Of a DNA stretch of 64,000 bases, positions 3,335 through 10,029 are shown piece after piece (the stretch's first letter is position 1; each line of letters starts with the position of its first letter). Origin of the DNA: an uncultured bacterium (lineage in GTDB: Bacteria > Verrucomicrobiota > Kiritimatiellia > CAIVKH01); assembly GCA_937958885.1 (NCBI GenBank), contig CALGMT010000013.1, positions 1 through 64,000 on the forward strand, read 5' to 3'. The translations under genes and the position numbers were made by a program. The notes beneath the pieces were generated by a model. The model saw nothing but the letters and a program-made list of their open reading frames with translations. It was not told where the DNA came from and searched no databases.

Positions 3335-5266
3335 TCAGGCGGACGGATCCTCCTCGCCTTCGCGGATGAGTCGAGCGCTGTTGAAGACGACGATGATCGA
3401 CCCGGCGTTGTGCGTGAGCGCGGCGAGGATCGGGTGCATCCAGCCCAACCCGGACAATGTGAGGCCGGCGATGATAAACAGACCGCCGATGGCGAGGTTC
3501 TGATAGACGACACTTCGCGCGGCGCGGGACAGGCGGATCAGGAATGGGAGGCGGCGCAGGTCGTTGCTCATCAGCGCGACGGTCGCGCTGTGAATGGCGA
3601 CATCGCGCCCGGCGGCGCCCATCGCGATGCCGGTATCGCTGGCGGCGAGGGCGGGGGCGTCGTTGACGCCGTCGCCGATGAAGGCGACGCGGTAGCCCTC
3701 GGCCTTCACGGCATTGACGAACTCGACTTTTTGCGCCGGCAGGCATTCGGCGCGCCACTCGATGGCGCCCGCGCTGCGCCCGATCTGCTCGGCGAGCTGG
3801 CGCGCGACGGCCTCGCGGTCGCCGGTGACCATCGCCATGCGGCGCACGCCGGGTGTCGCGGCGAGTTCCGCGAGCGCGGCCATCGCTTCCGGCCTCGGCT
3901 GATCGCGCAGTCCGATCCAGCCGAGATATCGGCCGCGGCGCGCGACGAAGATGACGCTCAAGGACTCCCCGCCCGCGCGGTCGTCCGCGTCGAGCGCGGG
4001 ATCGTCGATGCCGTTTGCGCGCAGCCATGCGGCTCGGCCGCAGATCAGCGCCTCGCCGTTTTCGGATGCGCGCACGCCGCGGCCGGGTTCTTCGTGGAAA
4101 TCCGACGGAGCGGGGGCGGACACGCCGGTGCGCTGCGCGAGATCGACAATCGCGCGAGCGGCGGGGTGCTGGCTCGGCTGCTCGGCGACGGCGGCCGCGC
4201 GCAGCAATTCGGCGGGCTCCACGCCTTCGCGCGGCGCGAGGCGCACGACGCCGAGTTCGCCGGTGGTCAGCGTGCCGGTCTTGTCGAACACCAGCGCATC
4301 GAGCCGCGCCGCGGCTTCGAGGTCCGCAACGTTTTTGACGAGGATGCCGCGCCGCGCGGCAGCGGAGAGCGCAGCGACCATTGCCGTCGGCATGGCGAGG
4401 ATGAACGCGCAGGGGCAGGAAATGACGAGAAGCGCCACCACGCGATCCCAGTCGTTTGTGAAGAACCAAACTAGCGCGACGAGCATGAGGACGGCGGGCG
4501 TGTAGTAGCCGACGTAGCGGTCCATGATGCGCATGACGGGCAGGCGGGTTTTTTCCGCGGCGAGAATCAGCTCGCGCACGCGGCCGATTGTGGTGTCTTC
4601 GCCCGCGCGGGTGACCTCGACCTCGATGGCGCCGGTGAGGTTTTGCGTGCCTGCGAAGACGTTATCTCCGGGCTCCCGATCCACAGGAAGGGACTCGCCG
4701 GTGATGGCCGATTCGTTCAGCGACGTGCGCCCGGCGCGGATGATGCCGTCCGCGGCGACATTATCGCCGGGCCGAATGCGGATGCGATCGCCGGGTTGCA
4801 ATCTAAAGGCCGGGACATCTTCTTCCGCTCCATCGGCTTTGACGCGCCGCGCCGTGGCGGGCGTGAGGCGGATCAGGCTTTCGATGGCGCGATGCGCGCC
4901 TTCGGCGGTGCGGGTCTCGATCACCAGCGAGAGCAGCATGAAAAAGGCGACGACGCCTGCGGTGCGGAAATCGCCCTGCGCCATAGCGGCGAGCACTGCG
5001 AGGGCAACGAGTTCGTCCATGTGCAGGTGCCCGCGCAGCAGGTCGCGGATCGCCGCCCAGAAGATCGGCAGCGCGAGGACGATCGCGCCGATCGCAGCGC
5101 TGATATCCGCGGCGAGCGGGTTGTCCGGATACACCCAGTCCGCGATATACGCGTTCACCACGAGCGCGGCGCCGGCGAGGAGCCAGCCGATGCGCACGGT
5201 GTGGTGCGCGTGATTCGCGCCCGGCGCGCCGCATCCACAGCCGGCTTGTTGGTCGGTGGCGCTCAT
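3335..5266 (-). CDS. P1B-type heavy-metal translocating ATPase
   Basis: SCPCAF, DKTGTLTTGE, QHPAA, GDGVNDAPALAASDTGIAMG; Cys/His-rich N-terminus CGCGAPGANHAHH. Start set at MSATDQQ (ATG 5266), overlapping the upstream stop by 4 nt. Confidence 0.93.
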   Translation of the reverse strand: MSATDQQAGCGCGAPGANHAHHTVRIGWLLAGAALVVNAYIADWVYPDNPLAADISAAIGAIVLALPIFWAAIRDLLRGHLHMDELVALAVLAAMAQGDFRTAGVVAFFMLLSLVIETRTAEGAHRAIESLIRLTPATARRVKADGAEEDVPAFRLQPGDRIRIRPGDNVAADGIIRAGRTSLNESAITGESLPVDREPGDNVFAGTQNLTGAIEVEVTRAGEDTTIGRVRELILAAEKTRLPVMRIMDRYVGYYTPAVLMLVALVWFFTNDWDRVVALLVISCPCAFILAMPTAMVAALSAAARRGILVKNVADLEAAARLDALVFDKTGTLTTGELGVVRLAPREGVEPAELLRAAAVAEQPSQHPAARAIVDLAQRTGVSAPAPSDFHEEPGRGVRASENGEALICGRAAWLRANGIDDPALDADDRAGGESLSVIFVARRGRYLGWIGLRDQPRPEAMAALAELAATPGVRRMAMVTGDREAVARQLAEQIGRSAGAIEWRAECLPAQKVEFVNAVKAEGYRVAFIGDGVNDAPALAASDTGIAMGAAGRDVAIHSATVALMSNDLRRLPFLIRLSRAARSVVYQNLAIGGLFIIAGLTLSGLGWMHPILAALTHNAGSIIVVFNSARLIREGEEDPSA

Positions 5267-6300
5267 TCGTGCGCCTCCGGGATCCAGCGCGGCGGCGCGC
5301 CGAAGTTGAGGCGGAGTTCCAGGCCTGCGTCGCGGTCGGGAACGAGCAGTTTGCGGCCCGCCCGCGCGAGCGCGTCGCGCAGCGCATCCTGGCGGAGAGT
5401 GTGCTCGACGAGGGCGGGATGTCGTCTCCACGCGTCGCGCAGCGCGGCGAAGGCGTCCGCCCGCGCGGCGACGGCGGACACGCGGCGCTGGCGGTCGGCG
5501 CTGCCCGCGGCGATGCGGCGGTCGGCCTCGGCTTCCGCTTCATTGGCTGTGCGCACTGCGAAGGCGCGCGCGTCGCTGATGAGCTGGTCGCGTTGCTGTG
5601 CGGATTGCGTGACCCTATCGAAGGCGGAAGCGACAGGCATCGGCGGGGCGATGCCGAGCAGGTCGACGCCTTGCAGACGCACGCCGAGATCGAGCGCGGT
5701 CAGACGCTCGCGCAGTTCCGATTCGACGGCGTCGCGGAAGGCGGCGACATCGGTGCGCAGCGCGCGGTCGATCGGGAATCGCGCGCTGACGCGGATCACG
5801 GCGCGGTCCAGTTCGTCGAGCAGCGTCTGCTCGGGCTGCGCGTAGCCGAAGATGTAGCGGTACGGATCGGAGACATTGTATCGCACGGCCCATCGGTGAT
5901 GCAGCAGGTTCGCGTCGCCGGTGAGCGCATAGCCGTCCTCGCCGGGGCGCAGTGAGCCGTGGTCCTCCGGCATGTCCTGAAATGGACTGGCGCGCCCATA
6001 CCAAAAGCGCCGGCTGGCGACCGATTGCACGCGTTCGGTCGGCACGCGAACGATTTCCGTGAATGGACGCGGCCAGCTCCAGTGCAGGCCCGGTCCTTTC
6101 ACGCGATCCGCGCCGACGCCGACGGGGCGTCCGAAGCGCAGCACAAAGGCGCGTTCGTGCTGGGGCACGATGAACACGCCGGAGGCGAGATAGGCGAGAA
6201 CAGCGAGCAGCAGGACGACGCGGAGCAGCCGGAACGTGAGGCGCAGCGCATCGCCGAGCGCTGCCGCGCCGGGGTCGGGGGTGGGGGGCGCCGCGCTCAC
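5263..6300 (-). CDS. SPFH/Band-7 protein, HflK-like
   Basis: One N-terminal TM then VPQHERAFVLRFGRPVG...GPGLHWSWPRPFTEI, A/E/R-rich coiled coil. GTG start, 4-nt overlap. Confidence 0.85.
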   Translation of the reverse strand: MSAAPPTPDPGAAALGDALRLTFRLLRVVLLLAVLAYLASGVFIVPQHERAFVLRFGRPVGVGADRVKGPGLHWSWPRPFTEIVRVPTERVQSVASRRFWYGRASPFQDMPEDHGSLRPGEDGYALTGDANLLHHRWAVRYNVSDPYRYIFGYAQPEQTLLDELDRAVIRVSARFPIDRALRTDVAAFRDAVESELRERLTALDLGVRLQGVDLLGIAPPMPVASAFDRVTQSAQQRDQLISDARAFAVRTANEAEAEADRRIAAGSADRQRRVSAVAARADAFAALRDAWRRHPALVEHTLRQDALRDALARAGRKLLVPDRDAGLELRLNFGAPPRWIPEAHE

Positions 6301-7217
6301 CGCTTGCGCTCCGGTGCGGGGGGCTGGGCTGCGGCCGGCGCGGCGGGCGCGAGTAAGAGATCAAACGGTTCCGTATCGGCGCTTAGCACGAGCGTGGCCT
6401 GATCGCCGATCGTGTCGCGCAGTGCGTCGAGCTTGCGGAGGAAGAGCGCGAGTTCGGGGTCCTGCGCGAAGACCTGGTAGTGCGCGGCGGCCTCCGCTTC
6501 GCCTTCCGCGCGAAGCCGGCGGGCCTCCGCGTCGGCGCGCGCGAGGAGTTGATCTCGCTCGCTCTCGGCGCGCGCGCGAATGCGGACGGCCTCGCCCTCG
6601 CCTTCCGAGCGGTAGCGCTCGGCGATCTCCTGCCGTTCGGCGCGCATGCGTTCGAATACGGATTGCGCAATCGATTCGGGCAGACCGAGCTGCCGTATGC
6701 CGACAAAGGCGACCTCGATGCCGTAACGGCGGAGGGCCTCCGGCCGAATGGCCTCGAACACGCGCTGCTCGATCTCATCGTGTTTCAGCGCGGACGCTTC
6801 GACGTTGACGAGTTGCGCGAACGCGATTTTGCCGAGCGCGGCGTTTTTGTGCGTGCGCATCAGACCATCGAGGCTGATCTCCGCTTGCTGCACCGTGCCG
6901 AGGCGCTCGAGGAACAGCACCGGGTCCGCGATGCGCCAACCGCAATACAGCGCGACGAGCACGTTCTTGCCATCTGCGGTAAGTGTTTCCTCGAAGGCGC
7001 CCTGTAGCGTGTGGAGGCGCGCGTCGAAGCGATGGATCCGCTGGATCGGCCAGGGAATACGCGTGTAGAGGCCGGCCTCGGTCAGTGTGCGCTCGGGGCG
7101 TCCGAGCCGGGTGACGACCGCCGCTTCGCCTTCGCGCACGATGAACACCACCTGCAACGCGGCGAAGAGCAGCGCGAGGGCCAGGCCTACGATCAGCGGG
7201 GTACGTTTCGCATTCAT
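6297..7217 (-). CDS. SPFH/Band-7 protein, HflC-like
   Basis: MNAKRTPLIVGLALALLFAALQVVFIVREGEAAVVTRLGRPERTLTEAGLYTRIPWPIQRIHRFDAR; coiled coil EAVRIRARAESERDQLLARADAEARRL. Confidence 0.87.
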   Translation of the reverse strand: MNAKRTPLIVGLALALLFAALQVVFIVREGEAAVVTRLGRPERTLTEAGLYTRIPWPIQRIHRFDARLHTLQGAFEETLTADGKNVLVALYCGWRIADPVLFLERLGTVQQAEISLDGLMRTHKNAALGKIAFAQLVNVEASALKHDEIEQRVFEAIRPEALRRYGIEVAFVGIRQLGLPESIAQSVFERMRAERQEIAERYRSEGEGEAVRIRARAESERDQLLARADAEARRLRAEGEAEAAAHYQVFAQDPELALFLRKLDALRDTIGDQATLVLSADTEPFDLLLAPAAPAAAQPPAPERKR

Positions 7218-9067
7218 GGGTGCAGGTCTCCAGGCGATAGCGGGGCCAGCTCGTACAATTCCGGGAAGGCGGATTTCTTCAGGTCGAAATACATCACCTG
7301 CTTCGCGCCGCGATGGGCGACGATTGTGAACGAGCGGCGGTCGAGCGCCTCTGCGAGCGCAGTGAGCTGCAAATCCTGGCGCAGGACGAACGGGGCGGTT
7401 GCGTGCGCCTCGCGCAAGCGGGCGAACAATTGCGCCTCCGCGCCGGCGCGTTCGCGCAGCTCCGTCCGGGCCGCTTCCGCGTCCATGCGGCGGCGTTCGG
7501 CTTCTGCGGCGGCGCGCGGGCCGATCGAAGCGGCGTAGGCGCGCGCGCCGAGCGCGTTCGCCTCTTTCATCTCGAGCGCGCCGATGACGGATTGGAACGC
7601 CTCGGCGACGGTCACGGGCGGGTGAATGCCCTGCCCGCCGACGAAGAGGATTTCGACGCCGAGCGCGTGGCGGTCGGCCTCCGCTTGGAGCGCGGCGCGG
7701 ATCGAGTCGCCGAACGCGATGCGCTCGCCGCCGAGCAAGTCCAGCAGGTCGCGTTGCGCGAGTGTGCGCGTCACCGTGCGGTACGCGCAGTCGCGCAGCA
7801 GCGCGGCAGGTTCGCGATGGCGGTAGGCGTGGTCCAGCAGGTTCGTGATGCGATACTCGATCGGCATGTTGAGCGAGACGAGGCTGACAGATACTGCCTC
7901 GCGGTCGTCGCGCGACCCCGCGGCGCGCGCCGCCGTCACGAACACGTCCTCGTCCGCGTAGTGCGGCACGTTCCACAGGATCGTGTCGGGCCGCATCTCG
8001 CGCGGATCCGGGCGAAAGCCGACGTCAATGCGCTGGATGCGTTTTGCGGGCAGGCGCTTGATCGATTCGAACGGCCACGGCGCTTTCAGGTGAAAACCGC
8101 TTTCCATCAACCACGCGCCATCGAGCGGGCGTCCCCAGCGCTCGCGAATGCCGGCTTCATGCGGCGCGATGAAGACGAGGCACGAGAGCGCATACATCAG
8201 CAACGCCTGGAGCAAGAGCATCGGCAGCAGCGCGCGGCGCAGGAAGCGGCGCATCGCCTCGTGGCCGGCCTGCACGCCGAATTGATAATCGAGCGACGAG
8301 GCGATGGTGCGGGTCCACGCCGCAGGATCGGTCAACCACGCTGCGAGGCGGCTTTCGATCGCGGGCGCGCGGCGGCGAGCGGGCACATATAGACCCGCGA
8401 TCACGAGCGCGAGTTGCTCGGCGGCGAGGAGTGCGAGCAGGCCGATCAACACGCGAGACCAGACGCGGTCCGGCATGCTCCAACCGAGATGCGCGGCGAT
8501 CGCAACGGCCGCGCCGGCGAAGGCGGCGAGCGCGAAAATGCCCAGCGCGATGCCGGGCGCGCGCGCGTACGCGGCTTCGCCTATCCGCGCGAGGCCGATC
8601 AGATAGCGGCTCAACAGGAAAAGAACGAACGCTTCGCCGAGCAGGAACGCCGCGGCCGGCAAGGGGTGCTCCGGCGCCGGCGCAAGCGCGAGATCGGCGC
8701 GGGCGAGGAACCACGCCCATGCGCCCAGCCCCGCCGCGAGGAGGAGCGCGAGCGCGGGAAGCGCGAAGCGCTCGAATTGTTCGGCGGATCGCGCGGCGGA
8801 AAACGGTTCGGTTTCACCCTGCGCGAAGAGGGCCGCATCGCTGCGCGCCGATGCGCGGGTGCGGTCCTGCTCCTCCTCGCGCGCGCGGTGCGCAAGGTTC
8901 GCGCGGATCAGCGCCGCAATGGCCAGCACGGCGCTCCACGCGGCGAACGGCGCGAGCGCGTCGAGAAACGTCAGTTCGGTGCGCGCCGCGAGCAGCGCGT
9001 TCACCCCGCCGAAGAGGCCGGCGATCGCGCCCGCGGCAAGCAGTATGTTTTCGGAGGCCGACTTCAT
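7214..9067 (-). CDS. SPFH/Band-7 protein with an additional multi-TM N-terminal region
   Basis: Start MKSASENILL (ATG 9067). Several hydrophobic segments over about 300 residues, then IAPHEAGIRERWGRPLDGAWLMESGFHLKAPWPFESIKRLPAKRIQRIDVGF (SPFH). Confidence 0.8.
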   Translation of the reverse strand: MKSASENILLAAGAIAGLFGGVNALLAARTELTFLDALAPFAAWSAVLAIAALIRANLAHRAREEEQDRTRASARSDAALFAQGETEPFSAARSAEQFERFALPALALLLAAGLGAWAWFLARADLALAPAPEHPLPAAAFLLGEAFVLFLLSRYLIGLARIGEAAYARAPGIALGIFALAAFAGAAVAIAAHLGWSMPDRVWSRVLIGLLALLAAEQLALVIAGLYVPARRRAPAIESRLAAWLTDPAAWTRTIASSLDYQFGVQAGHEAMRRFLRRALLPMLLLQALLMYALSCLVFIAPHEAGIRERWGRPLDGAWLMESGFHLKAPWPFESIKRLPAKRIQRIDVGFRPDPREMRPDTILWNVPHYADEDVFVTAARAAGSRDDREAVSVSLVSLNMPIEYRITNLLDHAYRHREPAALLRDCAYRTVTRTLAQRDLLDLLGGERIAFGDSIRAALQAEADRHALGVEILFVGGQGIHPPVTVAEAFQSVIGALEMKEANALGARAYAASIGPRAAAEAERRRMDAEAARTELRERAGAEAQLFARLREAHATAPFVLRQDLQLTALAEALDRRSFTIVAHRGAKQVMYFDLKKSAFPELYELAPLSPGDLHP

Positions 9068-10029
9068 CCGCGCAGTTCCATGCGGCGAAACGCGAATATA
9101 CCGATGGACAGGATGCCGGCCAAGTAGAACACCGTGTAGGTTCCGACGCGCGCGACATAGGACCACGGGACGCCATCCCCGGCGAGCGCGTCGGCCGCCC
9201 AGAAATGTTGGAAGTTCGGGGTGATGCCATCAAGCAGCGCGTACACCGGGCTGTGCGCCGCCTGGCGGCCGAACAGGTAATCCGACATCAAGCCCGCCAT
9301 CAGGATCACGCTGCTGACGACGAGCGCGGGCACGATATCGAGCCGGGTCGCCAGCGCGAGGGCCAGGCCGGCCAGCAGCAGAATCGCCAGCGCGAGCAGC
9401 GCGCCGGCGGGCACGATGCCGAGCGGCAGCGAGGCGCCCCACGTGTCGGGGTCGCCTTCCGCCGGAAACGCGCCCGATACTGCGACGGCCGCGGGCGCGA
9501 GCACGAGGAGGGCGCCAAAGGTCTGCGACGCGAAGGGGCGGCGGAAGAAAAAGTTTTGCGCGCCGCCCGCTGCGAGCGCGAGCACGACCGCTATGAATAG
9601 AGGACCGGAACCCATCAGATCATACACGAAGGGCACGGCCGCCGTCCGGGTGGCCAGGAGGGCCGCGCACGTCATCATCAGCGAAAAGGCTGCCATTACG
9701 AAGGCGATACCGGCAAACTTGCCGATAAAGAAAATCGTGCGGGGCACCGGTTTGGACAGAACGGCGGACGCCGTACCCCCGCGCAATTCTGCGCGTAGCG
9801 CAGTGCAGGCCGTCAGCACGCCCAGCACGAGGCCGAGGACAAAGTGCAGCGCGAGCGCGCTGTCGCGCACCAGCCGGTCCGCGTCGTTGAGCGTGTGGGT
9901 GAAGAGAAACGGCATCAGGCCAACGAATACAAGCGCCGACGCGGTTAGCAATGCGGCAATTGGCTGGCGCATAGCTTCCAGCGCGGTCAATCCCGCAATC
10001 GTCATGCCCTGTCGAACCATCAAGCGCAT
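9064..10029 (-). CDS. ABC-2-type transporter permease-like membrane protein
   Basis: About six TM segments; FVLGLVLGVLTACTALRAELRGGTASAVLSKPVPRTIFFIGKFAG resembles ABC-2 permeases. No ATPase adjacent. Confidence 0.65.
   Translation of the reverse strand: MRLMVRQGMTIAGLTALEAMRQPIAALLTASALVFVGLMPFLFTHTLNDADRLVRDSALALHFVLGLVLGVLTACTALRAELRGGTASAVLSKPVPRTIFFIGKFAGIAFVMAAFSLMMTCAALLATRTAAVPFVYDLMGSGPLFIAVVLALAAGGAQNFFFRRPFASQTFGALLVLAPAAVAVSGAFPAEGDPDTWGASLPLGIVPAGALLALAILLLAGLALALATRLDIVPALVVSSVILMAGLMSDYLFGRQAAHSPVYALLDGITPNFQHFWAADALAGDGVPWSYVARVGTYTVFYLAGILSIGIFAFRRMELRG

Follow-up and report, generated by a model that had tools for sequence, protein, structure and literature searches.

Which partner do three SPFH proteins serve when their genes stand in one operon with a metal-transporting P-type ATPase and not with the protease FtsH? 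The question is raised by a five-gene operon on the minus strand (positions 10029-3335) of the window, that is, the whole stretch of 64,000 nucleotides (nt) analysed here, which belongs to contig CALGMT010000013.1 (assembly GCA_937958885.1) of an uncultured bacterium of the Kiritimatiellia. The best-known role of HflK/HflC cages is to house FtsH, and HmtA, the Pseudomonas aeruginosa P1B ATPase with which the window enzyme is compared below, is an unusual and still disputed P-type importer. The answer that we favour, with moderate confidence, is that the SPFH proteins form a cage or scaffold dedicated to a P1B ATPase of the HmtA type, which would take up zinc and/or copper.

Gene Order and Conservation of the Operon

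The five open reading frames (ORFs) follow one another in the order permease (PERM), three SPFH proteins (S1, S2 and S3) and P1B ATPase (Table 1), and the four junctions read ctgcgcggATGAagtc, ctgcacccATGAatgc, cgcaagcgGTGAgcgc and gcgcacgaATGAgcgc, each being a stop/start overlap. The tight coupling that an earlier, sequence-only reading had proposed from these overlaps is borne out, as is its description of a metal ATPase accompanied by three distinct HflK/HflC-type SPFH proteins, FtsH being absent from the operon, which Pfam and NCBIfam assignments confirm; the window genome, a draft that is 88% complete, has one FtsH gene on another contig.

A genome search with the window S1 sequence alone returned no relative; a closer alignment used as the query did find relatives. 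Matches to S1 were present in 148 of 289 genomes, the weak ones including ordinary SPFH proteins. Within the phylum of the window, taken here as the phylum that includes Lentisphaeria, exactly S1-S2-S3-ATPase on one strand was found at 46 of 51 loci, the remaining five comprising two with the order ATPase-S1-S2-S3, two cut by contig ends and one without the ATPase. The four genes are collinear in this order at 67 of the 80 named Lentisphaeria/Kiritimatiellota loci; when the five plasmid loci are added to these 80, 72 are complete, eight are cut by contig ends and five, from the rumen, have S1 only. The plasmid loci, found by tblastn, carry the same four genes in Klebsiella aerogenes (conjugative), Rhizobium tumorigenes (two plasmids), Paraburkholderia sprentiae and Burkholderia ubonensis (conjugative), where they are annotated as “protease modulator HflK”, “HflC”, “SPFH/HflK” and “cation-translocating P-type ATPase”. 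The P. sprentiae cassette adjoins a zinc ATP-binding cassette (ABC) transporter, DUF2946 and PCuAC, and the Klebsiella cassette was not found in Escherichia coli genomes in a search among related genomes. The module is widespread in a phylum other than that of the Pseudomonadales, and since dozens of genomes have the identical gene order, the arrangement is not a product of chance. The sequence-only reading had staked itself on conservation of the neighbourhood outside this genome, and the phylum loci and plasmids clearly provide it. One genome of the window's own genus (G074) gave no S1 match, so that even among members of this genus the module has a patchy distribution.

Phylogeny of the ATPase and an ATPase::SPFH Fusion

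The window ATPase is of P1B type by its DKTGT sequence, the CPx motif of transmembrane helix (TM) 4, the HP motif and a score above the cut-off of the heavy-metal ATPase model. It has a Cys/His-rich N-terminus (CGCG..HAHH), CPC in TM4 and HNAGS in TM8. When P1B ATPases were placed in an IQ-TREE phylogeny, those of the module, from both phyla, grouped in a single clade (ultrafast bootstrap, UFB, 100). This clade includes the plasmid relatives with the hmtA-type layout; ZntA and CopA of E. coli lie outside it, as does the SPC/HEGST (P1B-4-like) group. It is marked by a TM4 CPC and by the lack of the TM7 Lys of ZntA, and in nearly all members a TM8 His is aligned with Asp714 of ZntA (the His is missing in two class relatives, L195 and L196). 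The window enzyme shares the P1B architecture and the TM4 CPC with P1B-2 pumps of the ZntA/CadA type; however, its TM8 reads THNAGS where ZntA has ADTGAT, and it has neither the TM7 Lys nor the TM8 Asp. With P1B-4 it shares the TM8 His, but it has CPC and HNAGS rather than SPC and HEG(G/S)T, and it neither groups with CopA nor has the TM7/TM8 motifs of P1B-1. Elsewhere in the window genome, a gene for a ZnuA-type binding protein is divergent from an SPC/HEGST ATPase (P1B-4-like).

A direct link between the two protein families was found in four genomes of one genus of the window's class, in which an in-frame ORF of about 1000 amino acids (aa), with no internal stop, encodes a P1B ATPase together with an HflK-like SPFH domain and is followed by S2- and S3-like genes. 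The fusion ORFs are 57-76% identical to the query member, and the unfused module is also present in three of these genomes (G007, G020 and G053). Membership of the fusion ATPase in the main module clade, as given by FastTree, was rejected after the fuller IQ-TREE analysis, which grouped it with other ATPases of another lineage with modest support (UFB 63), and the fusion SPFH domain falls outside the module clades, with canonical HflK (UFB 93/76). Since the fused system lies apart from the canonical module in both trees, the pairing of SPFH proteins with P1B ATPases may have arisen twice, the tree supports being modest. The view of the operon as a functional unit, with an SPFH assembly around a metal ATPase, is strengthened by this fusion and by the gene order kept across phyla.

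The hmtA Locus and the Direction of Transport

The sequence-only reading knew of no described system with this layout; one is found in P. aeruginosa at PA2439-PA2434 (PMC4542158, PMC8531726 and PMC13086221), where the order is PA2439-PA2438-PA2437-PA2436-hmtA(PA2435)-PA2434 (PMC4542158 Table 2). As in the window, an HflK-like, an HflC-like and a third SPFH protein precede a P1B ATPase, with the fixed order of trio and ATPase taken from PMC4542158 and PMC8531726. The loci differ in PA2436 and PA2434, which have no counterpart in the window, and in the NosY-like permease that the window adds upstream. The trio corresponds to PaFlo5-7 (PA14_33070/33080/33110) in PMC13086221, with a cross-walk of PA numbers in PMC9431628, and the former paper describes it as conserved in Pseudomonadales and otherwise in a small subset of species. 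In a znuA mutant, PA2439 (HflK family), PA2438 (HflC), PA2437 (HflC family) and PA2435 (HmtA) rose 5.6-14.4-fold (PMC4542158); proteins of the hmtA locus were also raised in zinc depletion (PMC11761036), and the promoter of PA2439, the first gene of the locus, was shifted by Zur (PMC8531726). Zinc and copper, but not silver or cadmium, are the metals that HmtA reportedly imports (PMC8456098, citing Lewinson et al. 2009). The metal, the direction of transport and the regulation of the window operon would then resemble those of this counterpart.

Genes for metal uptake also occur beside the module itself. At a locus from the window genome's family (L080), genes for a COG0523 GTPase, a WD40 protein, ZnuA, ZnuC and ZnuB lead directly into PERM-S1-S2-S3-ATPase on one strand; at another (L072), znuABC is divergent from the module ATPase; and at a third (L060), a metal-related island around the module contains three COG0523 proteins, an FeoB-like GTPase, MerC and an ABC transporter with an FtsX/MacB-like permease. 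The neighbour counts given here rest on searches for ZnuB, CobW, MerC and FtsH and on Pfam assignments; the ZnuA search was left out of them, since some of its seeds matched the ATPase or ABC ATPases. Because of the hmtA locus and the znuABC and COG0523 genes directly upstream in L080, uptake is to be favoured over export, and the metal exporter proposed by the sequence-only reading probably has the wrong direction.

An exporter would use the same scaffold for an ATPase that pumps zinc, cadmium or copper from the cytoplasm for resistance. Most characterised P1B ATPases are exporters, the best models of the window ATPase are the cadmium/zinc and copper families, and exporters often have the CPC motif and a Cys/His-rich N-terminus. 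However, at the only locus of this layout that has been studied, zinc starvation induces expression and the reported role of the ATPase is import (PMC4542158 and PMC8456098), the ATPase clade is separate from ZntA, CopA and P1B-4 and lacks the TM7 Lys and TM8 Asp of ZntA, and the placement of znuABC in L080 points the same way. Export thus appears rather unlikely.

Several observations nevertheless weigh against uptake by a caged ATPase. Zinc-uptake genes lie near only three of the 51 phylum loci, where a rough estimate would put 1-1.4 by chance, so that the enrichment is modest. One S1-S2-S3 locus (L066) has no ATPase, rumen Lentisphaerae (L171 and L173-L176) have S1 alone, with no adjacent S2, S3 or ATPase, and a few ATPases of the module clade (e.g., L212) are without SPFH neighbours. 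The likeness of the window ATPase to HmtA (PA2435) is one of synteny. In P. aeruginosa itself, the import direction of HmtA rests on overexpression and is called unconfirmed in a review (PMC10393844), added zinc did not lower hmtA mRNA (PMC8531726), and a PA14 paFlo5-7 mutant had no marked phenotype in the published tests (PMC13086221), among which zinc limitation was not seen. Upstream of the window operon, no Zur-like box scored better than shuffles against the gammaproteobacterial consensus, which may not be that of this phylum, and a scan with this consensus upstream of the 51 phylum and five plasmid loci gave nothing convincing.

The SPFH Proteins and Their Relation to FtsH

All three SPFH proteins match Pfam Band_7 (E-values of 3e-9 for S1, 5e-26 for S2 and 2e-20 for S3). 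S2 exceeds the curated HflC cut-off (TIGR01932, 171.6 vs 134.4 bits), and S1 (93.2 bits, 1.8e-26) and S3 (122.1 bits) do not reach the HflK cut-off of 159.4 bits (TIGR01933). The best profile matches among PDB structures are HflK for S1 (3.7e-45), HflC for S2 (1e-36) and HflK for S3 (2.5e-21). In the AlphaFold2 (AF2) model of S1, which has a predicted local distance difference test score (pLDDT) of 80, the N-terminal part is long and helical and contains the seven predicted TM helices; an SPFH domain and a coiled coil come after it, and HflK of E. coli (7vhq_E) is the top structural match. S1 and S3 resemble HflK, and S2 resembles HflC, in both sequence and predicted fold; the window operon nevertheless differs from the E. 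coli HflK-HflC-FtsH system in having three SPFH proteins, a seven-TM S1 and an ATPase partner, with FtsH elsewhere and no hfq-hflX context. In the SPFH tree, an S2 clade (UFB 93) and an S3 clade (UFB 99) each span both phyla, and E. coli HflC and HflK fall outside them; the tree does not fix the position of S1. The operon genes and cysQ include no NfeD partner according to Pfam and NCBIfam, so that the layout is not the flotillin/stomatin-NfeD arrangement.

This likeness speaks for a trio that mainly regulates FtsH as a substitute for HflKC and is co-transcribed with the metal ATPase; one purpose could be the adjustment of FtsH, which is a zinc protease, under metal stress. No HflK/HflC pair other than S1-S3 was found in the window genome, which does have FtsH; the module S2 is the sole clear HflC in about half of the 24 module genomes examined; and PA2437-2439 are called FtsH modulators in the literature (PMC9431628). 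However, FtsH is near only one of the 51 modules, whereas the ATPase is adjacent in 48. P. aeruginosa carries both the trio and canonical HflKC (PMC13086221), and three of the 24 module genomes have a clearly separate, strong HflC. The S2 and S3 clades are distinct from HflC and HflK, and the fusion links SPFH to the ATPase, not to FtsH. We consider FtsH regulation improbable as the main role; since S2 is the sole clear HflC in so many of these genomes, the trio may have an accessory FtsH role in addition. The window genome also encodes two adjoining SPFH proteins (572 and 511 aa, Band_7) on contig C56, which were rejected as a canonical HflKC pair because they have no HflK/HflC match.

It is very improbable that the genes form only a co-regulated metal-starvation operon whose products make no single complex and whose overlaps result only from tightly packed genes: many bacterial operons contain 4-nt overlaps and the junctions in other genomes are often not overlaps (S1/S2, 33/51; S3/ATPase, 33/48), but the order is fixed over two phyla and plasmids and an ATPase::SPFH fusion exists.

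In the SPFH cage for metal uptake that we favour, the inner membrane would carry a ring or cage on its periplasmic side, in which S1 and S3 would occupy HflK-like places and S2 the HflC-like one. We infer physical contact in the window organism, where the cage would enclose or dock the ATPase, probably via the seven TM helices of S1, and would support it as it uses ATP to bring periplasmic zinc (and/or copper) into the cell under metal scarcity. The locking of three SPFH genes to one P1B clade, together with the separate fusion, points to SPFH cages as housings for transporters as well, with certain metal pumps operating within a protein cage of their own. As a general mechanism we advance this tentatively, as a proposal that could well prove wrong: an HflKC-like cage would serve a transport ATPase instead of a protease and form a private periplasmic compartment for the uptake of scarce metal, in a pairing that evolved at least twice, once by ATPase-SPFH fusion. 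Such housing may explain the unusual behaviour of HmtA, and it calls into question whether PA2437-2439 are no more than modulators of FtsH. Cultured organisms in which it could be tested, such as Victivallis vadensis, are gained.

Table 1. Features of the operon and of related loci (L, locus; G, genome; C, contig).
Feature	Position	Strand	Basis or remark
PERM, NosY-like ABC-2 permease, 321 aa, about 8 TM	9064..10029	-	predicted fold
PERM/S1 overlap	9064..9067	-	4 nt, ATGA
S1, HflK-like SPFH, 617 aa, seven predicted TM helices	7214..9067	-	Band_7 and HflK profile/model
S1/S2 overlap	7214..7217	-	4 nt, ATGA
S2, HflC-like SPFH, 306 aa, one TM	6297..7217	-	TIGR01932 above cut-off
S2/S3 overlap	6297..6300	-	4 nt, GTGA
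S3, HflK-like SPFH, 345 aa, one TM	5263..6300	-	TIGR01933 122 bits, below cut-off
S3/ATPase overlap	5263..5266	-	4 nt, ATGA
P1B metal-transporting ATPase, 643 aa	3335..5266	-	TIGR01525 524.7 bits, cut-off 346
cysQ	3259-2483	-	
ATPase::SPFH fusion	L215:9440-12454 (G007:C31)		
ATPase::SPFH fusion	L235 (G020)		
ATPase::SPFH fusion	L236 (G053)		
ATPase::SPFH fusion	L237 (G318)		
Zinc-uptake genes leading into module	L080:2602-8122		
Metal-related island around module	L060:1733-19900		
c0-c1-c2 following the module	L087:14989-19251		
c0-c1-c2, window genome	C4:80015-83918 (L266:6016-9919)		
Adjoining SPFH pair, window genome	C56 (L058:9183-12433)		
ZnuA-type gene and SPC/HEGST ATPase, window genome	C75:7281-10182 (L229)		

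The NosY-Like Permease and Neighbouring Genes

PERM matches Pfam ABC2_membrane_4/2 only weakly (2.5e-4, below the cut-off), and its AF2 model (pLDDT 88, predicted TM-score 0.88) has the ABC-2 permease fold, with NosY of NosDFY as the top Foldseek matches (E 1.7e-3, probability 1.00, TM-score 0.57/0.71). The likeness to the NosDFY transporter of copper-site maturation lies in this predicted fold of NosY; sequence similarity is weak, and the window operon has no NosD, NosL or cognate ABC ATPase among its genes. PERM is kept beside S1 in 16 loci, and its upstream position is typical of the window's class. In most Lentisphaeria, the module is instead followed by an ABC ATPase (c0), an ABC-2-like permease (c1) and a membrane protein of 540 aa without a Pfam match (c2), and a few genomes (L078, L083) have both the upstream permease and c0-c1-c2. 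PERM may be a lineage-specific accessory, whose ATP-binding partner could be an ABC ATPase encoded elsewhere in the genome. The window genome has c0-c1-c2 on a contig unlinked to the module, and its c1 is a distant homologue of PERM. Around the operon, lpxK is divergent on the upstream side, and cysQ, on the same strand 75 nt downstream of the ATPase gene, probably lies outside the operon unit.

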